Assembly: GCA_025060715.1 (NCBI GenBank)
Contig: JANXBG010000012.1
Span: forward strand, 1 to 48,564
Direction: 5' to 3'
Source of the DNA: Caldifarciminota bacterium
GTDB taxonomy: Bacteria > Hydrothermota > Tepidihabitantia > Tepidihabitantales > DTDR01
Length of the DNA: 48,564 nt
The position numbers were made by a program, and so were the translations under genes. The notes below the pieces were generated by a model. That model was not told the origin of the DNA and searched no databases. It saw only the letters and a program-made list of their open reading frames with translations. Of this stretch, positions 12,938-38,185 are shown piece after piece. The first letter of the stretch is position 1; the number at the start of each line of letters is the position of its first letter.

Positions 12938-13042
12938 ATTTATATTTTATTTTGGATTCAAAAGAGAGATAAATTGGTGCTTTTTACATAAGTCTTTAGT
13001 TTCTACCCAAAATACCTAAAATATAATTGATTAATTTTGAAA

Positions 13043-13071
13043 TTGACAAATTTAATATTTTTAAATATAAT
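13043..13071 (+). promoter_or_regulatory. Consensus promoter of the histidine kinase / PorX-like operon
   Basis: A perfect TTGACA (13043-13048), 17 bp, TATAAT (13066-13071). It lies inside the longest possible reading frame (TTG at 13027), which argues that translation begins downstream at the ATG at 13087, 15 nt past the -10 box. Confidence 0.8.
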
Positions 13072-13086
13072 AATATTAAAAATGAA

Positions 13087-14241
13087 ATGAAATTTGGTAA
13101 AAAGTTTCTAATTAGTTATTTTATCCTTATTTCTTTACTTTTTACAATAATATTTTTTGTTATTTCTTCTTACATTTTTAAAAAATTAGAAGAGGAAATA
13201 ACTTTACGTTCACGAATTTTTGCTAAATATATGTCAAAAACCCAAGAAGAGGGTTGGGAAAGTAGTTCTTATGAGTTAGATATAATATTTGAAGAGGTAA
13301 TTAAAAAGATCGATTTTCCTGTAATCGTTACGGATGATAAGGGTGAGATAATAGCTTATCGAAATGTTGGTAAAAATCCCACGAAGGAGATGTTAAAAAG
13401 AAAGATAGAAAATCTTAAAAAAGAAAAGTCGCCAATTCCTATTTTAGTAAATATCGGTGATACTACAAAATTTCTTGGTGAAATCTATTATGGTTTATCT
13501 CCTTCAGCAAAATTTGTTCGTTATTATCCTTATTATCAAATTCTAATTTTATTAATATTTCTCTTTTTGGGAATTTGGGCAATTTTTGTTTACAAGAAAA
13601 AAGAAGAAGAAAAATTATGGAATTTTTTAGCAAAAGAAACTGCTCATCAAATAGCAACCCCTCTTTCTTCTTTAATTGGCTGGCTTTTAACAATTAAAGA
13701 TAAAATTGAAAAAAGTTATTATGAAGAAATGTCCTTAGATATAAAGAAAATGGAAATTGCTTTAGAGAGATTTTCTCGTATTGGTTTACCTCCCAAACTT
13801 AGTGCCACACCGATAAGAGAAGTTATTGAAAAAGTTTGTCAACATTTTCAAAAAAGAATGCCTTTAAATATTGAGTTAATTTTAAATCTGAAAAGTAACC
13901 CAATCCTACCTTTAGACGAAGTTCTTTTTAGTTGGAGTTTAGAAAATTTGTTAAAAAATAGTGTTGATGCAATTGGTAATAATCCAGGAAGAATTGAGAT
14001 AAGGGAAATTTTTAATAATAATACTTATTACGAGATCCATATAATTGATAGTGGTGAAGGAATAGATAGAAAAATTAAAAATAAAATTTTTAAACCAGGG
14101 ATAACCACTAAAAGATACGGTTGGGGGATAGGTTTATCATTAGCAAAAAGGATTATTGAAGAATATCACAAAGGAAAATTGGTATTAAAAGAATCGAAAA
14201 AAGGAAGAACAGTTTTTTCTATTCTTTTAAGGAAAAAATGA
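13087..14241 (+). CDS. Membrane sensor histidine kinase (PorY-like by context)
   Basis: The start at 13087 is preferred over the upstream TTG because a consensus promoter overlaps the longer frame. The 384-residue protein has a transmembrane helix at about 6-30, a small extracytoplasmic domain (~120 residues), a second helix near 150-169, then the dimerisation/phosphoacceptor box KETAHQIATPLSSLIGW (His187). The ATPase domain has N-box ENLLKNSVDAI, G1 IDSGEGID and G2 YGWGIGLSLAKRI. Its end overlaps the next gene by 4 nt, so the kinase and the PorX-like regulator are co-translated, strong evidence that they are a cognate pair. The input signal is unknown. Confidence 0.85.
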   Translation: MKFGKKFLISYFILISLLFTIIFFVISSYIFKKLEEEITLRSRIFAKYMSKTQEEGWESSSYELDIIFEEVIKKIDFPVIVTDDKGEIIAYRNVGKNPTKEMLKRKIENLKKEKSPIPILVNIGDTTKFLGEIYYGLSPSAKFVRYYPYYQILILLIFLFLGIWAIFVYKKKEEEKLWNFLAKETAHQIATPLSSLIGWLLTIKDKIEKSYYEEMSLDIKKMEIALERFSRIGLPPKLSATPIREVIEKVCQHFQKRMPLNIELILNLKSNPILPLDEVLFSWSLENLLKNSVDAIGNNPGRIEIREIFNNNTYYEIHIIDSGEGIDRKIKNKIFKPGITTKRYGWGIGLSLAKRIIEEYHKGKLVLKESKKGRTVFSILLRKK

Positions 14242-15749
14242 AAATTCTTTGGATTGATGATGAAATTGAACTTTTAAAGCCTTTTATTTATTTTCTAAAA
14301 GAAAAAGGATACGAGGTAAAAGAAGTAAGTAATGGAGTGGATGGTTTAAATAAAATAAAAGAAGAAAATTTTGATTTAGTTTTTTTAGATGAAATGATGC
14401 CAGGAATTGATGGCTTAGAAGTTGCTAAAAAAATTAAAAATTATGACCCAAATATTTCTGTGGTAATGGTGACTAAAGTAAGTGAAGAGACCTTTATTGA
14501 TGAAGCCTACGCTAATTTGGTTGATGATTTTATTTTAAAACCATTAAATCCAATGCAAATCTTAGCGGTGATTAAAAGATTGTTAGAAAAAAAAGAAATT
14601 TTTAAAAAGAGTTTAGTAAGAGAATATTTAAAAATTCTTTCCAGTATAAAAAATTTTGAAAAATTTGAAGAATGGTGTGATTTTTATCAGCAATTGATAA
14701 AATGGCGTGAATATATTTATCGTTTTTCTCTTACGGATTTAAAAGAGAGCTATGAAGATATCTTAAAAGAAGGAAACGAAAATTTTGTCCATTTTATTGA
14801 AGCCAATTATTTTGATTGGTTAAAAAAGAATTCCGGACCAATCCTTTCTCATCGATTTTTTGATAAGTTTATTAAATCTAATTTAGATAAATTACCGCTC
14901 TATTGGATAATTTTTGATTCCTTAAGACTTGACCAATGGTTAATTATTTACAATATTTTAAAAGAGTATTTTTTAATAAAACAAGATTTTTACTGTTCTA
15001 TCCTTCCTTCAGCAACTCCTTATTCTCGCAATGCTTTATTAAGTGGTTTAACACCAGAAAAGATTTTTAGATATTATCCTCATTGCTGGGTATTTGAGGA
15101 TGTAGGACAAAACAGATATGAAGAAGAACTTTTTCAGAGACTTTTGATGAGAGAAAAAATTTCTTTAAAGTATTTTTATTTAAAAGTTTTAAAAATTCAA
15201 GATTTAAATGAAAAGTTGAATTATCTCTTAAACCCTGAGGCAGAAATAATTATAATTGTCATCAATTTTTTAGATTTCCTTATTCATTCCGCCAAAGAGA
15301 CCGAATTTATAAAAGAGATCGCGGAAAATGAAGACACTTTATTAGAATTTACTAAAATTTGGTTTAACTCTTCATTGATATTTCAGTTTTTGAAAAGGCT
15401 CAAACAAAAGAGAAGTAAAATTATTATAACTTCGGATCACGGATTTATTAAAGTTAAAAGGCCAACAATTATTCAAGGCGGAAGAGAACTTTCTCCTAAT
15501 CTTCGTTATAAATCCGGCGGTGGATTAACAGTGGATAAAAAAGCAGCTTGGCTTTTGGCACCAAAAGATTTAGAAATACCACAAGAATTTTTAGGTGAGC
15601 AGTACGCAATTTGTAAAAGTGACTATTATTTTATCTATCCAACAAAACCGAAAGAGTATGAAAAGACTTACAAATTTACCTATCAACATGGTGGAATTTC
15701 TATGCAAGAGATGATTTTGCCGGTAGGGATTTTATTTCCTCTTGATTAA
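14238..15749 (+). CDS. porX: PorX-like response regulator with PglZ phosphatase domain
   Basis: This 503-residue protein has an N-terminal receiver (1-120; acidic Asp7/Asp8, phospho-acceptor Asp51 in LVFLDEMMPG, Thr79, Lys101), a helical linker, and a PglZ/alkaline-phosphatase-superfamily domain from about 220. Candidate metal and nucleophile residues are Asp227 (IIFDSLRLDQW), Thr260 (SATPYSRNALLSG), Asp346/His350 (FLDFLIH), Asp400-His401 (TSDHGF) and His484 (YQHGGISMQE). This architecture is that of PorX, which in Bacteroidota controls T9SS and whose PglZ domain has been described as a phosphodiesterase. Several T9SS-tailed proteins in the window fit that role. No DNA-binding domain is present. 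Confidence 0.85.
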   Translation: MKILWIDDEIELLKPFIYFLKEKGYEVKEVSNGVDGLNKIKEENFDLVFLDEMMPGIDGLEVAKKIKNYDPNISVVMVTKVSEETFIDEAYANLVDDFILKPLNPMQILAVIKRLLEKKEIFKKSLVREYLKILSSIKNFEKFEEWCDFYQQLIKWREYIYRFSLTDLKESYEDILKEGNENFVHFIEANYFDWLKKNSGPILSHRFFDKFIKSNLDKLPLYWIIFDSLRLDQWLIIYNILKEYFLIKQDFYCSILPSATPYSRNALLSGLTPEKIFRYYPHCWVFEDVGQNRYEEELFQRLLMREKISLKYFYLKVLKIQDLNEKLNYLLNPEAEIIIIVINFLDFLIHSAKETEFIKEIAENEDTLLEFTKIWFNSSLIFQFLKRLKQKRSKIIITSDHGFIKVKRPTIIQGGRELSPNLRYKSGGGLTVDKKAAWLLAPKDLEIPQEFLGEQYAICKSDYYFIYPTKPKEYEKTYKFTYQHGGISMQEMILPVGILFPLD

Positions 15750-16286: not shown

Positions 16287-19124
16287 ATGCCCGAAAACAA
16301 TTATATTTTTATCAAAGGAGCAAGGGAGCACAATTTGAAAAATCTTACTTTAAAGATTCCTCGTAATAAAATGGTAGTTATTACTGGAATTTCTGGTTCA
16401 GGAAAATCTTCCCTAGCTTTTGATACGATTTATGCCGAAGGACAGCGAAGATATATTGAATCCCTTTCTTCCTATGCTCGTCAATTTTTAGGTGTATTAG
16501 AAAAACCTGATGTTGATTATATTGAAGGCCTCTCACCAGCAATTGCAATTGAACAACGAACAGCAGCAAAAAATCCTCGTTCTACCGTTGGAACCGTTAC
16601 CGAAATTTATGATTACTTAAGGGTCCTTTTTGCCCGCATCGGAACTCCTTTTTGCCCTTATTGCAATAAAGAAATTACCTGTCAAACTTTAGACCAAATA
16701 ATTGATCAAATATCTCTCTATCCACTGAATACTAAATTGACGATATTAGCACCGGTAGTTAGAGGAAGAAAAGGAGAATATCAGACCCTTTTAGAAAAAA
16801 TTAGAAAAAAAGGTTTTTTAAGAGTAAGAATAGATGGGAAAATTTATGAAATTTCCGAAGTTAAAAATTTAGAAAAATATAAAAAACATAATATTGAAAT
16901 ACTTATTGATCGTTTAGTTTTAAACCAAGAAAATCAAAAAAGATTAGCAGAATCTGTAGAATTAGCATTAAAGGAAGGGCAAGGATTATGTTTAGTAATT
17001 TTTGATGAAAAAGAAGAAAAAATCTTTTCTGAGAGATTTGCCTGTGTGGAATGCGGTTTTTCTTACGAGGAAATTTCTCCTCGGTTATTTTCTTTCAATT
17101 CACCCTATGGTGCTTGTCCTGCCTGTCACGGATTAGGTACAAAAATGGAAATCGATCCAGAAAGATTAATTGTTGACCCAGAGCTTTCAATTAATGAAGG
17201 AGTGATTGAGGTGTGGGGAGAACCAAAAGGCAGATGGTTTACTTCAGTTTTGAAAGCCTTGGCTAAAAATTATAATTTTTCCTTAAATACTCCGTGGAAA
17301 AAGTTACCAAAAGAGGTTAAAAAAATAATTCTTTATGGTAGTAATGAAGAAATTCTTGTAGAACACGAAAGGTGGGATGGAACTCGTTACCAATTTTATG
17401 AAGAATTTGAAGGAGTTGTTCCCCATTTGATGCGAATTTATCAAACAACCGAATCAGAAAGTACTCGAGAGTGGATTGAAAGATATATGTCAATTTTACC
17501 TTGTCCAGAATGTTTAGGTGCCCGTCTTAAGAAAGAAGCCTTATCAATTAAAATTGCTGGATATTCAATATATGATATTTGTAAATTATCTATTAAAGAA
17601 TGTTTTCAATTTTTTGAAAATCTAAAATTAAAAGAACAAGAAAAGAAAATCGCTGGTGAGTTAATTAAAGAGATTAAAAAGCGGTTAGAGTTTTTAATTG
17701 AAGTTGGTGTTGACTATTTAACTTTAGAAAGACGTACCGATACTTTGGGTGGAGGTGAAGAACAGAGAGTAAGATTGGCAACACAAATTGGTTCCGGTTT
17801 AGTTGGTGTTACTTATATTTTAGATGAACCTACAATTGGTTTACATATGCGTGATAATCAAAAGTTAATACAGACTTTGTTAAGGTTAAGAGATTTAGGA
17901 AATACCGTAATTGTTGTTGAACACGACCGGGACACAATCTTAGCAAGTGATTATGTAATTGATCTAGGACCAGGAGCGGGTGAAAAGGGAGGTTATATAG
18001 TAGCTATGGGCACACCTTTAGAAATAATGGAAAACCCAAATTCCTTAACAGGGGCTTATTTAGCAGGTAAAAAAGAGATTCCTTTACCTAAAGAAAGAAG
18101 AAAAGGTAATGGTAAATTTTTGATTGTAAAAGGTTGTTGTGAAAATAATTTAAAAAATATTGATATTCAAATACCATTAGGAATGTTTGTTTGTCTTACT
18201 GGAGTTTCAGGTTCAGGTAAAAGCACTTTTATGAACGAAATTCTTTACAAAGCCTTAGCTGAAAAATTTTATGGTTCAAAGGAAAAGCCAGGAAAATTTA
18301 AAGAGATTATAGGTTGGGAAGAAATTGATAAAGTAGTTAATATTGATCAATCGCCCATTGGACGAACCCCTCGTTCTAATCCAGCGACTTATACCAATGT
18401 TTTTACACCTATAAGAGAACTTTTTGCCCAAACCAAAGAAGCTAAAATGCGAGGTTATCTTCCTGGCAGATTTTCTTTTAATGTTCGCGGTGGTCGTTGT
18501 GAAAATTGTGGAGGTGATGGAGTAAAAAAAATTGAAATGCATTTTCTACCTGATGTTTATGTCACTTGCGAAGTTTGTAAAGGAAAAAGATATAATCGAG
18601 AAACTTTAGAGATAAAATATAAAGGGAAAAATATTTATGATGTATTAGAAATGACGGTTAATGAAGCGCTAGAGTTTTTTTATAACATACCTTCTATTCG
18701 AAGAAAATTGGAGATGTTGAGGGATGTTGGATTGGGTTATATAAAATTGGGACAGCCAGCAACAACTTTATCTGGTGGTGAAGCCCAAAGGGTAAAATTG
18801 GCAAGAGAATTATCCAAGATTGGTACAGGAAAAACTTTATATCTTTTAGATGAACCAACTACTGGTTTGCATTTTGAGGATATTAGACTATTATTAATTG
18901 TTCTTAATCGCTTAGTAGATAGAGGTAATACCGTTTTAGTCATTGAACATAACTTAGAAGTAATAAAATGTGCTGATTGGATAATTGACTTAGGACCTGA
19001 AGGCGGTGAAAACGGAGGATATGTAGTGGTTTGTGGAAGACCAGAAGATGTAGCAAAGTGTGAAAAATCTTATACCGGAAAATTTCTTAAAGAAATACTA
19101 AAAAGACATGGAGTCAAAATTTAA
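16287..19124 (+). CDS. uvrA: Excinuclease ABC subunit A
   Basis: At 945 residues this is full length. It has two ABC ATPase halves: Walker [13 protein letters not shown] near residue 33 and [11 protein letters not shown] near 638, signature [12 protein letters not shown] and [12 protein letters not shown], and Walker [11 protein letters not shown] and [10 protein letters not shown]. Zinc-binding Cys sets are CPYCN...[11 protein letters not shown]...CPACHG and CENCGGDG...CEVCKGKR. UvrA scans DNA for bulky lesions and loads UvrB in nucleotide excision repair; uvrB and uvrC are not in the window. One oddity is LGGGE rather than LSGGE in the first signature motif. The 3' end overlaps the convergent ymdB gene by 27 bp. 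Confidence 0.97.
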
Positions 19125-19901
19125 ATTTTCTTCCCAAATTCTTTCAATTCTTACGGCCTTATAGGTAGGAGCGTCAATTTCTATTAAAACTCCCTCAATC
19201 TGAGAAGCAGAATCCGCAGGAGTGAGACGGTAATTAATTCCATAAAGAAATCTTTTAAGAGAATCCTCAATCCTCATTCCTAAGATAGAATTTGTGGCTC
19301 CACACATCCCTACATCACTGATGTATGCTGTGCCTTTTGGTAAAATTTTTGCATCCGCCGTAGGAATATGAGTATGAGTTCCTAAAACAGCACTTACTTT
19401 ACCATCTAAAAAGTATCCCATTGCTTTTTTTTCCGCAGTGGCTTCTGCATGAAAATCAACAATTATAATTCCTTTTTCATTAATCTTCGCTAACTCTTCC
19501 TCAATTCTGCGAAAAGGGCAATCCACCGGTTTCATGAATACTCTGCCAATAAGATTTATTACAATAAATAAAATATTTTTCTTTCGTGTTATATAAATTC
19601 CTTTTCCGGGAGCACCGGAAGGATAATTGAGAGGGCGAATAATTTTTTTTTCCTTTTCTAAATATGGAATAATTTCCTTTCTATCAAAAGTATGGTCACC
19701 CAAAGTGATGCAATCAACCCCTAAAGAAAAAAATTCTTCAGCAATCTTTGGAGTTATACCAAATCCTCCTGCTGAATTTTCACCATTAATAATAACAAAA
19801 TCAGGTTGGTACTTATCTTTCAAAATTTCTATCCCCTTTGCTACTGCTTTCCTTCCTGCTTCTCCGCAAACATCGCCTAAAAAAATAATCTTATAATTCA
19901 T
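19098..19901 (-). CDS. ymdB: YmdB-family metallophosphoesterase
   Basis: This 267-residue protein follows the TIGR00282 family: [14 protein letters not shown] (Asp10), [14 protein letters not shown] (Glu41, Asn42), [10 protein letters not shown] (where GNHTWD is usual), [11 protein letters not shown] and [12 protein letters not shown] supply the di-metal ligands. Family members hydrolyse 2',3'-cyclic nucleotides and affect RNase Y-dependent RNA turnover in Bacillus. The gene overlaps the end of rny by 11 nt, the conserved rny-ymdB pairing, which supports a shared role in RNA metabolism. Confidence 0.92.
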
Positions 19902-21414
19902 AGATTAAATTTATCTTTATCTCTCCTAACATATCTAACTCATTTCTTATTTTTTGTTGAAGATTTCTAATTAATAAATAGTTTTCCTTTTCGTCAAGTT
20001 TATTGATATTTAATAAAATTCGAATTTCTCTTCCTAATTGAAAGACATAAGCTTTTTTCACTTCCGGATTTTCTTCACAGAGTTCTTCAATTTTTGTCAA
20101 CCTTTTAAAAATTTTATCAAACTCCACTGCTCGCCCTTGGCCATAGAGATGAGAAAGTGAATTGGCTAAGGAAATTAGATAACATTCGGGATAAGGAAAA
20201 TTATTCGATTGGTGATGATTAAGAATTGACTGGACGACAATTTCATTTTCACCAAAATTTTTAACAAAATTAGCACCAATTACTTGATGAGGGAGATTTT
20301 CTTGGTTAGGAAGAATTTTACCGATGTCGTGTAAAAGGCCACTTTTTAAAACATTTAAAGGATTGAGACCCAGATTGATCGCTAAATTTTTACCTAAAAT
20401 CGCTACTTCTTTAGAATGGGAGAGGAGGTTTTGTCCATAAGTAATATGAAATTCCATTTCTCCTATTAATTTTATTAATTCTTTGGGAAAATTTTCAATC
20501 CCTAACTCTTTACAAGTATCTAAACCAATTTGAAAAATTTTCTCTTCAAATTCTTCTAATATCTTTTTAAAGGTTTTTTCAATAATCTCTGTAGAAATTT
20601 CTTTTTCATTGATAATTTCTTTAATTAATAATTTAGCAAGCATTCTTCTTTTAGGATTAAAGGAAAAAATAAAAATTTTCTTGGGAGTATCATCAATAAT
20701 AATTTCAGCACCAGTAAGATTTTCAATTAAGTGGATATTTCTTCCTTTACGACCGATTAATTTTCCTTTCAATTCTTCTTCTGGCACTTCTACCCAAGAT
20801 ACACTATATTCTTTAGCTGTTGGTAAAGCAAATTTCTGGCAAGCTTCTAATATCATTTTTTGAGCAATTATCTTTATTTCACCATCCGATTTTTCTTTAA
20901 TTTTTTTTAATTCTTCAAAATGTTCATTCCAAACTTCTTTTTCGAAAATCTTTTTTAATTCTTCTTTTATTTCCTCAATACTTAAATTAGGTATCTTTAA
21001 TAATCGAGTTTGATATTCGTTTATTAACTTATCAAGATATTCAATTTTTACTTTGTAAATTTTTTCAAGAGTTAAAATTTCATTTTCTTTATTTTGAATA
21101 CGATTTAAATAAGATAAATATTCTTTTTCTTTCTTTTGACAAAGGTTAATTTGCTCTTCTAATTCTTTTCTTTTTATTGTTAATTCATTTAACTTTTTTT
21201 CATATTCTTGTAAAATTTTTGTTTTTTCAATTTCTAATTCTTTTTTAAGATTTTCAATTAAACTTTGTGTTTCTTTTTTGTTTTCTTCTTCAATTTTCTT
21301 TTTATACTCATCAATTTTTCTTTTTTCTTCCTCATACCTTTTCTGCCAAGCTCTTTTTGTAAACAAATAAGTAAAAAAAGAGATTAAAGGTAATAAAAAT
21401 AATAGAAACCACAT
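19891..21414 (-). CDS. rny: Ribonuclease Y
   Basis: This 507-residue protein is of normal length for RNase Y. It has an N-terminal membrane anchor (FLLFLLPLISFFTYLF), a long lysine/glutamate-rich coiled coil to about residue 190, a KH domain (GKLIGRKGRNIHLIENLTGA) and a C-terminal HD domain with LLHDIGKILP and NHHQSNNFPYP. It is a membrane-tethered endonuclease that initiates mRNA decay. An AAGGAG site lies 6 nt before the ATG, directly after the 6S RNA, so the mRNA is probably produced by processing behind that RNA. Confidence 0.95.
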   Translation of the reverse strand: MWFLLFLLPLISFFTYLFTKRAWQKRYEEEKRKIDEYKKKIEEENKKETQSLIENLKKELEIEKTKILQEYEKKLNELTIKRKELEEQINLCQKKEKEYLSYLNRIQNKENEILTLEKIYKVKIEYLDKLINEYQTRLLKIPNLSIEEIKEELKKIFEKEVWNEHFEELKKIKEKSDGEIKIIAQKMILEACQKFALPTAKEYSVSWVEVPEEELKGKLIGRKGRNIHLIENLTGAEIIIDDTPKKIFIFSFNPKRRMLAKLLIKEIINEKEISTEIIEKTFKKILEEFEEKIFQIGLDTCKELGIENFPKELIKLIGEMEFHITYGQNLLSHSKEVAILGKNLAINLGLNPLNVLKSGLLHDIGKILPNQENLPHQVIGANFVKNFGENEIVVQSILNHHQSNNFPYPECYLISLANSLSHLYGQGRAVEFDKIFKRLTKIEELCEENPEVKKAYVFQLGREIRILLNINKLDEKENYLLIRNLQQKIRNELDMLGEIKINLIYEL

Positions 21415-21435
21415 TTTTTCTCCTTTTAAACTCCA

Positions 21436-21612
21436 GGCTCTCCGTAGTATCGTGTGGGGGATGGTCTCTGAACCCTAAAAAAACATGTGGCGTCCTTGAG
21501 ATGGGTCCTATCTGAGAGGATAAAACCTCCCGATAGTAAGCATCATCGGACATCCATTATTCAGGTGTTGGCTCAAGACCATATTTACCCATCACGGATA
21601 CTACCGAGAGCC
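21436..21612 (-). ncRNA. ssrS: 6S RNA
   Basis: Read on the minus strand from 21612, a ~177-nt RNA starts GGCTCTCGGTAGTATCCGTG and ends CACGATACTACGGAGAGCC, forming a long outer stem. Inner segments CTTGAGCC and GGGTTCAGAGACC resemble the conserved arms that frame the central bubble of 6S RNA, the structure that mimics an open promoter and sequesters sigma70 RNA polymerase. Its place immediately after zapA is the classic location of ssrS in many bacteria. The first 12 nt are also the last codons and stop of zapA. A structural model would be decisive; an unrelated structured leader of rny is the alternative. Confidence 0.8.
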
Positions 21613-21876
21613 TTTATTATTTGCCATTTTTTCAATGAGCAAATCTAATCGTTCTTTTAAAATCTTTTCTTTTTTTTCAGAATTATCAATTAATTCCTCA
21701 ATCAAATTAAGAGAACCAAAAAAAATTAGTTCACTAAAATCTAAATAAGGAAACTTCTCTTTTAATTCTTTAACTTTGCTTTCTAAGAGATGAAATAATC
21801 TTTTTAAATATTCTTCATCTTTGTCGCTTTTAATTTCGTAAGTTTGGTCTAAAAATTGGAGACGGTAGGTATTCAT
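21601..21876 (-). CDS. zapA: Cell division protein ZapA
   Basis: This 91-residue protein has a short N-terminal beta domain (YRLQFLDQTYEIKSDKDEEYL) followed by helices and a C-terminal coiled coil, the usual ZapA organisation. ZapA binds FtsZ and promotes bundling at the division ring. Genomic context supports the call: it overlaps the upstream coiled-coil gene by 4 nt, lies in the pheT operon and is followed directly by 6S RNA, as in many bacteria. Its last codons and stop (GGC TCT CGG TAG) fall inside the 6S outer stem. Confidence 0.85.
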   Translation of the reverse strand: MNTYRLQFLDQTYEIKSDKDEEYLKRLFHLLESKVKELKEKFPYLDFSELIFFGSLNLIEELIDNSEKKEKILKERLDLLIEKMANNKGSR

Positions 21877-22070
21877 ATTGTAAGTTTATCAAAATTTTTT
21901 AATTTTTCAATAATAATTTTTATTTTTTTTAAACTCTTTTCAATTTTTGCCTGATAATTTGTCAATTCTTTTTTTAAATTTTCATTTTCCTTTTTTAACA
22001 TTTCTTTTTCTTTAAGAGTTTTTTCAATTAATTCTTCTAAGGTTTTTAATTTTTTTTCAATTTCATTCAT
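21873..22070 (-). CDS. Small coiled-coil protein between pheT and zapA (ZapB-like)
   Basis: This 65-residue protein is almost entirely heptad-repeat coiled coil (KLKTLEELIEKTLKEKEML and following). It overlaps pheT and zapA by 4 nt each, so all three are translationally coupled. Size, composition and position next to zapA suggest a ZapB-like division factor, but coiled coils this short cannot be assigned by sequence alone. Confidence 0.7.
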   Translation of the reverse strand: MNEIEKKLKTLEELIEKTLKEKEMLKKENENLKKELTNYQAKIEKSLKKIKIIIEKLKNFDKLTI

Positions 22071-24310
22071 TTTTTTCTTAATTGAGCAGGAAAATTATTT
22101 TCAATTAACAAAATGATTTTGTTTAACGATTTTTCTAACTCCTCCCTAGTATAAGGTTGCTCTTTGGGATGGAAAAGAAGGCGGATACCTAAATTTCTTT
22201 TCCCCGGCGGTAATGGTTTGCCAACAAAGGAATCAAAAACAATAATTTCTTTTATAAAAGAACCACAATTTTTTTTAATAAAATCAATTATCTCTTTAGC
22301 CTTAAGGGTTTCATCAATAATGAATGATAAATCTCGATAAACAGGCAAAAAAGGAGAAGAGGGTTGATAGATTTTTTCTTTTGGTAAATGTCGATAGACT
22401 TTTTCTAAATTTATTTCTGAATAAAAAACTTCTTCTTCAATTTTGTAATTAATGAGTAAATTTTTATTTATTTTCCCTAAACAACCAATTTCTTCGTCTT
22501 TATAAATAATTGCTATGGAAGGAAAGGACGAAAAATAGGGATACTTCTTTAATGTATAATCAATTTCAGGAATATTTAAAAAAATAAAAATTTCTTCGAT
22601 AATTCCTTTGAGATCAAAATAATCTATCTTTTTAGATTTTACGTCAAAATTAACTGGATAATTTTCTCCTGTCAAGGCAATAGCTAAAAGATATTTTTCC
22701 TCCTTGTAAACTTTACCAATTTCAAAAATTCTTAGATTTTTATTATTAAAAGAATGATTATAGGAAATTACTGATAACAATGAATAAACAAGAGTATCTC
22801 TTAAAACTGCTAATCTTTCATTTAAAGGATTTAATAAATTAACACTTTCTTTTATGTTTTCCGGTAATAGACTTAAAGTAATTGTTTCGTAGAAACCTCT
22901 TCCCACAAGAAAATTTCTGAGATTATTTAAGAAGAGGGTAAAGGGCTGAATTTCACCAATCTTTTTAATTTTTAAATGAAAGAAAGAGGGAAAATTTTCG
23001 TAGCCATAATAGCGAGCAATTTCTTCTACCAAGTCAATTGGTAATTTTAAATCTTGACGCCAAGATGGTGGTTGATAAATAATCTCCTCTTCATCAACTT
23101 TAATAATTTTGCCCCCAAGCTTTTTAAAAATATTTAAGAGATAATCTTTAGAAAAAGTTATCCCCAGAATTCTCTTAGAATAATTTAAAGGAAAATTAAT
23201 TATTTCTTTCTTTAATTCTTTTTTAATAATTTTTCTTTCCTTTATAATTTGTCCTTTGCCCCAATGGGCAATCAAATTGGCAGCATAGTTGGCAGAATAA
23301 CTTAAATTTTCATAATCACTTCCTAACTCAAATCTTCTTGCTGCTTCGGTTCTCAAATTTAAAAAGTTTATTCCTTCACGGATTGCTTCTTGAGAGAAAA
23401 GGGCGCATTCTAAAAGTACTTCAGTGGTATTTTCAACAATTTCCGTATTTTGACCACCAATTATTCCAGCAATTGCTATTATTCTTTTACTATCAGCAAT
23501 ACAGAGAACCTTTTCAGAAACTTCTCTTTCTACTCCGTCAATAGTTCTAATTTTCTCTCCTTTCTTACCTTGGCGCACATAAATTTTGTTTCCGAAAATT
23601 CTTTTCAAATCAAAGGGATGTAAGGGTTGACCAAATTGAAGAAGAGTATAATTAGTAGCGTCAACCACATTATTTACCGGTCTTAATCCTGAAAGAAAAA
23701 GACGCCATTGATAAAATAAAGGAGAAGGTTTTATAGTTAAGTTAATAATTTTTGTAGCTATATAAAAGGGACATTTTTCTAAATCTTCAATAATTATTTC
23801 AATATCATTTTCCCTTTCAATTTCGTAAGAGTTTTCCACCTTTGGTAAAATTAAATTTCGGTCAGTAAAATAAGCAATCTCTCGGGCAATACCAAAAACC
23901 GAAAATAAATCAGCCCGATTAGGAGTAATTTCTACTTCTAAAGCAAAATTATCAAGATAATTAAAAACTTCTTTTTCATCTTCTCCTTCTTCAAAAACTA
24001 AATAACCTTCGTAAGGGAAAGCCAAGTCACTGCCTTTCAATATTTTTTTTTCTTTCAAATGATAACCTACTTTTTGGCCAATTTCACCAGGAAGATTTTC
24101 ATTAATTACAAATTCTTCATTATCTATCTTTAAAATAGTTTTATCCTCTTTTTTTTCAATAATTGTGGCTAAAAAATAACCCGAGAAATCTTTTAGATAA
24201 TTATAAAAATTAATAACCTCAATACCCTTTTTTTCTAATAAATTTAAAAGCTCCTTTTCGTCAATCTTTGGTTCTAGAAATTCATTGAGCCAATTTAAAG
24301 TAAGTTTCAT
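22067..24310 (-). CDS. pheT: Phenylalanyl-tRNA synthetase beta subunit
   Basis: This 747-residue protein has the bacterial PheT order: an N-terminal tRNA-binding region, a B3/B4 editing domain with EITPNRADLFSVFGIAREIA and RPVNNVVDATNY, a B5 domain, the pseudo-catalytic core (NPLNERLAVLRDTLV), and a C-terminal FDX-ACB domain (LPVYRDLSFIID...GIRLLF). It pairs with PheS to charge tRNA-Phe. pheS is not adjacent; the upstream side is a 1.3-kb scar region, and pheT has its own promoter (24320-24347), so the common pheST arrangement is broken. The N-terminal region is shorter than usual (~750 versus ~800 residues). Confidence 0.95.
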   Translation of the reverse strand: MKLTLNWLNEFLEPKIDEKELLNLLEKKGIEVINFYNYLKDFSGYFLATIIEKKEDKTILKIDNEEFVINENLPGEIGQKVGYHLKEKKILKGSDLAFPYEGYLVFEEGEDEKEVFNYLDNFALEVEITPNRADLFSVFGIAREIAYFTDRNLILPKVENSYEIERENDIEIIIEDLEKCPFYIATKIINLTIKPSPLFYQWRLFLSGLRPVNNVVDATNYTLLQFGQPLHPFDLKRIFGNKIYVRQGKKGEKIRTIDGVEREVSEKVLCIADSKRIIAIAGIIGGQNTEIVENTTEVLLECALFSQEAIREGINFLNLRTEAARRFELGSDYENLSYSANYAANLIAHWGKGQIIKERKIIKKELKKEIINFPLNYSKRILGITFSKDYLLNIFKKLGGKIIKVDEEEIIYQPPSWRQDLKLPIDLVEEIARYYGYENFPSFFHLKIKKIGEIQPFTLFLNNLRNFLVGRGFYETITLSLLPENIKESVNLLNPLNERLAVLRDTLVYSLLSVISYNHSFNNKNLRIFEIGKVYKEEKYLLAIALTGENYPVNFDVKSKKIDYFDLKGIIEEIFIFLNIPEIDYTLKKYPYFSSFPSIAIIYKDEEIGCLGKINKNLLINYKIEEEVFYSEINLEKVYRHLPKEKIYQPSSPFLPVYRDLSFIIDETLKAKEIIDFIKKNCGSFIKEIIVFDSFVGKPLPPGKRNLGIRLLFHPKEQPYTREELEKSLNKIILLIENNFPAQLRKK

Positions 24311-37763: not shown

Positions 37764-37772
37764 TAGTTTACC

Positions 37773-37957
37773 GGGCTTGTGACAGGTCTCCTGACTCGCA
37801 ACCATCCCTATTCCACCTTCCCATCGGCAAGAAGCCGACAGTGGTATTTGGAATAGGTTTTTCGGTTGCTCACAGTGGGCAGGACCGTGGCGGATTTTCA
37901 CCGCCTTCCCTGGCACCAAAAAATTTGGTGCTCCGCTCTTGCGGACTTCACAAGCCC
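37773..37957 (-). promoter_or_regulatory. Cobalamin riboswitch aptamer
   Basis: Minus-strand P1 is a perfect 9-bp stem: GGGCTTGTG (37957-37949) with CACAAGCCC (37781-37773). Inside are GGAAGGCGGTGAAAATCCGC, TGCCCACTGTGAGCAACC and the near-invariant GAGTCAGGAGACCTGTC, all signatures of the B12 aptamer. It lies ~40 nt upstream of a TonB receptor gene. No open reading frame here should be taken as coding. Confidence 0.95.
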
Positions 37958-38185
37958 AATAAATGTAATCCTCAACCATTTTCCCAAATAAACGTTTATT
38001 AAAAATATGATTTTATAAAAAATAAATGAAAAATCAATAAAAAAAGAATAAATGTATTAAGAAAATTAGCAGGTTTAATAGGGATATTAAATAGAGAAGA
38101 ATGTTTAATTTATAAAAACTTTTACTACTTTTAAGTTGATACCGAAGATATTTTTGATAAATTTAATAAAGGAAACTTAAAATAA

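Follow-up and report, generated by a model that had tools for sequence, protein, structure and literature searches.

In the Caldifarciminota bacterium contig analyzed here (48,564 nucleotides; hereafter, the window), the genome's single 6S RNA gene, recognized by homology, is located between zapA and rny, and the last codons of zapA are also part of the RNA. Judging from the genome comparisons below, the zapA-6S-rny gene order appears to be old and common to several phyla rather than a local oddity. The overall explanation that we consider quite probable is a single 6S RNA residing in an old array of a zapB-like gene, zapA, 6S and rny, with a presumed role in the control of RNA polymerase and with processing as the favored route of its production. 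The 6S RNA itself is ordinary; the interest lies in the gene array and in the coding overlap.

All the protein-coding genes of the neighborhood lie on the minus strand: pheT (22067..24310; Pfam domains B3_4, B5, FDX-ACB and CLM), an ORF for a 65-aa coiled-coil protein in the zapB position (21873..22070), zapA (21601..21876; 91 aa; Pfam PF05164, ZapA, 45.2 bits, cut-off 23.8), rny, encoding a divergent RNase Y (19891..21414; TIGR03319, 357 bits, E 1.3e-106; Pfam HD and KH_1), and ymdB (19098..19901; Pfam YmdB, E 1.7e-104). The 65-aa ORF overlaps both pheT and zapA by 4 nt, and rny overlaps ymdB by 11 nt. The 6S RNA gene (ssrS; 177 nt; 21436..21612, minus strand) fills the space between zapA and rny, and the interval 21436-21876, to which a preliminary description of this region had drawn attention, comprises zapA and the RNA. 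That description had placed the 3' end of the RNA almost against the rny ribosome-binding site, as is indeed the case: the RNA ends at 21436, a Shine-Dalgarno-like AAGGAG follows 10 nt further on (21420..21425, minus strand), and the rny ATG is at 21414.

Most genomes of the window's class have a small coiled-coil ORF ahead of zapA. ZapB was the best Pfam match for 7 of the 8 such ORFs tested, all seven from other genomes of the class, and two of the matches exceeded the curated cut-off; the window's own 65-aa ORF has no ZapB match in Pfam. Given that coiled coils match many families weakly, these matches are suggestive of a ZapB-like ORF ahead of zapA in the class.

The 6S RNA was identified by an Rfam cmscan search of 21380-21660, in which RF00013 (6S) matched 21435-21612 of the minus strand over model positions 1-187 of 187, with a score of 42.2 bits and an E-value of 1.7e-7. 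This score is about 4 bits under the gathering threshold of 46.4, at which Rfam reports no 6S RNA at 21436-21612, so that a standard annotation run is silent there; the gathering cut-off is the Rfam inclusion rule, not a biological feature. In a genome-wide search, the window copy is the sole 6S match (E 2.2e-7). The predicted fold reaches -84.2 kcal/mol, compared with -47.4 (sd 4.2) for 200 shuffled sequences, none of which folds as well (z -8.7). The covariance match and the fold jointly predict a rod with a closing stem, a bubble-flanking helix, a central bubble and a terminal arm, and both bubble-flanking sequences, GAGCC and GGUUC, are present. The preliminary description had called this RNA 6S, had proposed the Rfam covariance search and folding as checks, and had named the lack of a covariance match and of a conserved central bubble as the evidence that would speak against it. 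The identification is borne out by the match over the full model and by the fold z-score, and the alignment described next contains invariant 6S core segments.

Two other genomes of the genus retain the RNA at 88-89% identity, and in a relative from the same order (G006), it remains alignable as DNA (68%, E 1.2e-5), with an RF00013 score of 78.7 bits, well above the cut-off. We aligned 22 sequences, which represent the order of the window and not the whole class. In this alignment, the core AGUCUUGAGC.AAC.CC and GGUUC are invariant, apart from one or two exceptions at single columns; GTTC is invariant and GAGCC nearly so. Also nearly invariant are AGUCUUGAGCCAACACC and its partner GGGUUCA.AGAC, as well as CGUGA...CACG at the base of the closing stem. 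In the window, alignment and fold place the 5' strand of the inner helix beside the central bubble at 21570..21580 (GGTCTTGAGCC, minus strand; its core is invariant in the order) and the 3' strand at 21463..21475 (GGGTTCAGAGACC, minus strand). Just inside the bubble, an AAC (21567..21569, minus strand) is invariant in 22 of 22 sequences and, by analogy, is a possible start template of the product RNA, a role of the bubble that we take over from the 6S RNAs of E. coli and B. subtilis.

The RNAalifold consensus of the order alignment contains 30 pairs, and for 12 of these at least one sequence has both partners changed. Because MAFFT puts part of the outer 3' strand in the wrong place in the genus sequences, the closing stem was re-derived from duplexes; in the window, its 3' strand lies at 21436..21451 (GATACTACGGAGAGCC, minus strand), with a duplex energy of -30.8 kcal/mol. 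Compared with the commonest pairs in 50 other sequences of the class, the genus closing stem is changed on both sides at three pairs (offsets -11, -7 and -3), from C-G to U-A twice and from G-C to A-U once, and at one closing-stem pair, the three species of the genus have U-A, U-G and C-G, respectively. Such compensatory changes preserve the closing stem within the genus. The notion of a hairpin that arose by chance, or of a structured spacer of another kind, for which the score under the gathering cut-off could be cited, has next to no probability given the E-value, the z-score, the double-sided changes at 12 of the 30 consensus pairs and the presence of homologues above the cut-off in 41 of the 65 genomes of the class, and we reject it.

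The window RNA resembles the 6S (SsrS) family of RF00013 in the rod, closing stem, bubble-flanking helix, central bubble and terminal arm, in its single copy and in its class-wide conservation; it differs in scoring below the gathering cut-off and in an outer stem that is altered by compensatory changes and includes the last zapA codons. Like other 6S RNAs, it would mimic a promoter and in this way bind the housekeeping RNA polymerase holoenzyme, would restrain transcription during slow or arrested growth, and would be freed from the polymerase when a short product RNA is transcribed from the conserved bubble; polymerase binding and the product RNA are what we infer from the analogy. As for 6S-Flavo (RF01685), which was considered as a better-fitting family and rejected, nothing in the stretch 21380-21660 matches RF01685 at E <= 10. 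The pertinent part of PMC2864571 describes 6S-Flavo as a class of 6S RNAs that has diverged in Bacteroidetes. This group also has the zapA-6S-rny order, but the Bacteroidota loci with this order in our set were found with RF00013. At L111, L148 and the Bacteroidota loci L293-L321, RF00013 places a 6S RNA between zapA and rny, mostly below the cut-off.

Within the class, 6S was found in 59 of the 65 genomes, of which 51 match at E <= 0.01 and eight were added (G000, G001, G009, G011, G013, G007, G004 and G029), and zapA lies just upstream in 57 of the 59; G045 and G006 (contig edge; no PF05164 match) were not scored as having zapA upstream. The tables of 53 class loci omit the later additions G009, G011, G013, G007, G004 and G029, all six of which carry zapA just upstream. 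When these 53 loci are oriented by script, zapA is upstream on the same strand in 51, where its stop ranges from 28 nt within the 6S RNA to 74 nt ahead of it, and rny is downstream in 52; in G016, the contig ends 283 nt past the 6S RNA.

The arrangement extends well outside the class. In the other classes of WOR-3, the group to which we assign the window, zapA and rny flank the 6S RNA at all 26 loci. For four further phylum groups, labeled after the named record at the center of each group, we analyzed the 30 best-scoring loci per group, out of 63 (G077), 35 (G078), 53 (G080) and 60 (G084) genomes with matches. In the Syntrophaceae-MAG phylum (6S match in 63 of 99 genomes), rny is downstream at 30 of the 30 best loci and zapA is present as well at 23. 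The Bacteroidetes-MAG phylum has a 6S match in 35 of 198 genomes, 34 of the 35 below the cut-off, with both zapA and rny at each of the 30 best loci. In the Aminicenantes-MAG phylum (53 of 80 genomes), zapA is found at 27 of the 30 best loci, and both genes at 22. In contrast, the Bacillota 6S RNA, although of the same RNA family and matched in 60 of 61 genomes, has neither zapA nor rny alongside at any of the 30 best loci. Among seven further loci from named genomes, the array is seen in Ignavibacteriales only; it is lacking at the Desantisbacteria, Planctomycetota, two Omnitrophota and two Bacillota loci, the Desantisbacteria one having merely 181 nt upstream.

Three loci with both genes are exceptions to the array. 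In L128 (Zixiibacteriota) and L179 (Neomarinimicrobiota), only 94 and 66 nt, respectively, separate the zapA stop from the beginning of the rny match, which leaves no room for a 6S RNA, so that the zapA-rny linkage can exist without it; in L160 (Aminicenantes), the 253 nt between zapA and rny contain no 6S match. Four other loci (L113, L116, L124 and L149), with zapA-rny gaps of 227-376 nt and stable predicted folds, were considered as 6S loci and not counted, having no Rfam match; these gaps may hold unrecognized 6S RNAs. More generally, the zapA-rny junction is a place to look for 6S genes that fall below the threshold.

The position of the RNA directly before rny in four phylum-level groups, together with a closing stem that is followed by a T run in many relatives, could be taken to indicate that the hairpin acts mainly in cis on rny, as a leader, a terminator-like barrier or a site of RNase Y autoregulation, with the 6S features being ancestral or secondary. 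We regard this as rather improbable. A leader would not need the bubble-flanking helix that is so strongly conserved in the 22 sequences of the order; the Bacillota 6S RNAs lack adjacent rny and zapA; rny follows zapA without a 6S RNA in L128 and L179; and the window itself has no T run.

The junction with zapA is closer still than that with rny. The last four zapA codons, GGC TCT CGG TAG (21601..21612, minus strand; GGCTCTCGGTAG), which specify Gly-Ser-Arg-stop, are the first 12 nt of the 6S RNA and the 5' strand of its closing stem, in which 11 of the 12 nucleotides are paired in all three members of the genus. The claim in the preliminary description that the outer stem is built from the end of zapA thus holds for both the sequence and the pairing. 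The zapA stop lies 12 nt inside the 6S RNA in 3 of 3 genus members. Across the class, its position ranges from 3 nt inside the 6S RNA to 16 nt upstream of it at 40 of 51 loci and lies 18-74 nt upstream at seven loci, and in one genome (G026), zapA overlaps the RNA by 28 nt. Outside the class, the overlap is 12 nt in two genomes of family f34 (G159 and G160) and 21 nt in G153 (family f32) and in five genomes of family f37; single loci on the Acidobacteriota and Desulfobacterota sides show overlaps of 12 and 28 nt.

In f34, f37 and G153, the start of the 6S RNA (GGTTCCCTG) is read as Gly-Ser-Leu of ZapA, and in f37 and G153, the zapA stop is the UGA of the conserved CGUGA of the 6S RNA. Because the 6S UGA serves as the zapA stop in these genomes, the old zapA stop was seemingly lost and the loss was caught by the RNA, and as far as the sequences tell, this seems to have happened repeatedly. 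One family displays two states: at L278 (G153), zapA extends 21 nt into the 6S RNA, and at L279, in its relative G154, zapA stops 3 nt short of it. The overlap looks like a small lineage-specific variation that has arisen several times, where the recurrence is counted by loci. In the overlapping lineages, the letters of a housekeeping regulatory RNA are read as protein.

A comparable unit, zapB-zapA-ssrS-ygfA(-EVE), is described for beta- and gamma-proteobacteria in the relevant sections of PMC7641849 and PMC9788540. It shares with the window the direct succession of zapA and 6S and co-directional downstream genes, and with the window's class a ZapB-like gene ahead of zapA. Unlike that unit, the window has rny-ymdB in place of ygfA, a 12-nt overlap of zapA with 6S, and pheT in front; directly downstream of the window 6S RNA, there is no ygfA or EVE gene but RNase Y and YmdB. 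Among other reports, PMC7366714 and PMC9723704, in the portions concerned, mention 6S without gene context, and the corresponding portion of PMC2245857 mentions 6S and zapA in separate contexts. The literature searched, the scope of which did not extend to a 2014 survey of 6S dissemination and a 2005 6S paper, contained, as far as we found, neither the zapA-6S-rny order nor a zapA-6S overlap, only zapA-6S-ygfA/EVE; the zapA-6S-rny form may be undescribed, although prior notice is possible. That WOR-3 and three other phylum-level groups have the zapA-6S junction together with RNase Y suggests a bond between zapA and 6S that predates the proteobacterial unit, with RNase Y as its commoner partner elsewhere. 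The proteobacterial zapA-6S neighborhood has been discussed as connecting cell division with growth arrest.

The layout implies, as the preliminary description had noted, that the 6S RNA is either cut from a polycistronic transcript or made from a promoter inside zapA; this dichotomy stands, but for the second option, a consensus scan detected no sigma-70-like promoter on the RNA's own strand within 250 nt 5' of it. We somewhat favor processing. Endonuclease cuts, probably in the AU-rich single strands that flank the closing stem, would free most of the 6S RNA from a longer zapA-6S-rny transcript; the RNA would then be trimmed to the stem, and the downstream product would carry rny with its ribosome-binding site. 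In support of this route, the gap between zapA and 6S is -3 to +16 nt at 40 of 51 class loci and the flanks of the RNA are AU-rich. The E. coli 6S RNA, according to the part of PMC7641849 that deals with it, is a processing product of a dicistronic ssrS-ygfA transcript. What speaks against processing is that an abundant 6S RNA could come from a low-abundance division-gene transcript only if it were highly stable.

Transcription of 6S from its own promoter buried in zapA, independent of the operon transcript and with the overlap as mere compact packing, is a plausible, if somewhat doubtful, alternative. The 6S RNAs of E. coli and B. subtilis are transcribed from promoters of their own, and in the window, an AATAAT that matches the -10 box at 5 of 6 positions is located 4-9 nt 5' of the RNA; however, this is nearer the start than usual, in an AT-rich genome. 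The scan found no two-hexamer site near the 5' end of 6S, and the 5 sites that it did find, against 3.2 expected from shuffles, are no clear excess. By eye, the last 16 nt before 6S share no -10-like motif across the class. Within the three-member genus, synonymous sites are better conserved over the last ten zapA codons, where 24 of 26 codon pairs are identical, than over the gene body (124 of 180); a buried promoter could account for this, but so could the stem. In the three larger families f6, f3 and f8, synonymous conservation is not raised at the zapA 3' end: the fraction of same-residue codon pairs that are identical is 0.54, 0.57 and 0.64, respectively, over the last ten columns and 0.50, 0.58 and 0.61 over the gene body.

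If the RNA is processed, RNase E/G, encoded in the genome (PF10150, E 5.9e-100), would be the likeliest cutter. RNase Y would be the weaker candidate for 6S cutting here because it is divergent in the window and carries a replacement of Asp by Asn. Its TIGR03319 score of 357 bits compares with 609 in a relative of the same order and an NCBIfam cut-off of 454. A single-protein search with the window RNase Y over the genome contigs retrieved no relatives; these were found with a 15-row alignment as the query. The ADSISG segment of the HD domain has Asn instead of Asp in 3 of 3 RNase Y proteins of the genus, whereas Asp is found in all 45 other class proteins that cover the site, and the window genus has HHQ where the others have HHE or HHK. 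We take the Asp of ADSISG to be the last metal ligand of HD domains, and the RNase Y of the genus is possibly altered catalytically.

Processing would have a further consequence in the overlapping lineages: a cut at the 5' end of 6S would remove the zapA stop codon, so that one transcript molecule would yield either 6S or an intact zapA message but not both. The array might then be a processing switch, in which release of 6S removes the zapA stop (in the overlapping lineages) and frees the rny message, lowering ZapA and changing RNase Y, while ribosomes terminating on zapA hold the closing stem open and restrain 6S production, and the recurrent stop losses are selected tuning. This scheme strikes us as unlikely; were it true, making an RNA polymerase inhibitor would automatically lower ZapA, the stabilizer of the Z-ring. 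The gene order hints at a possible functional link between division, RNA decay and the control of RNA polymerase, and the array poses a testable question, namely, whether cutting out 6S costs the cell ZapA.

Elsewhere in the window, an ORF on the plus strand (14238-15749) encodes a response regulator fused to a PglZ domain and adjoins a histidine-kinase-like ORF (13027-14241; kinase assigned by eye); the fusion resembles PorX of Bacteroidota type IX secretion. A Cobalamin riboswitch (91.5 bits) is located at 37764-37967 on the minus strand.
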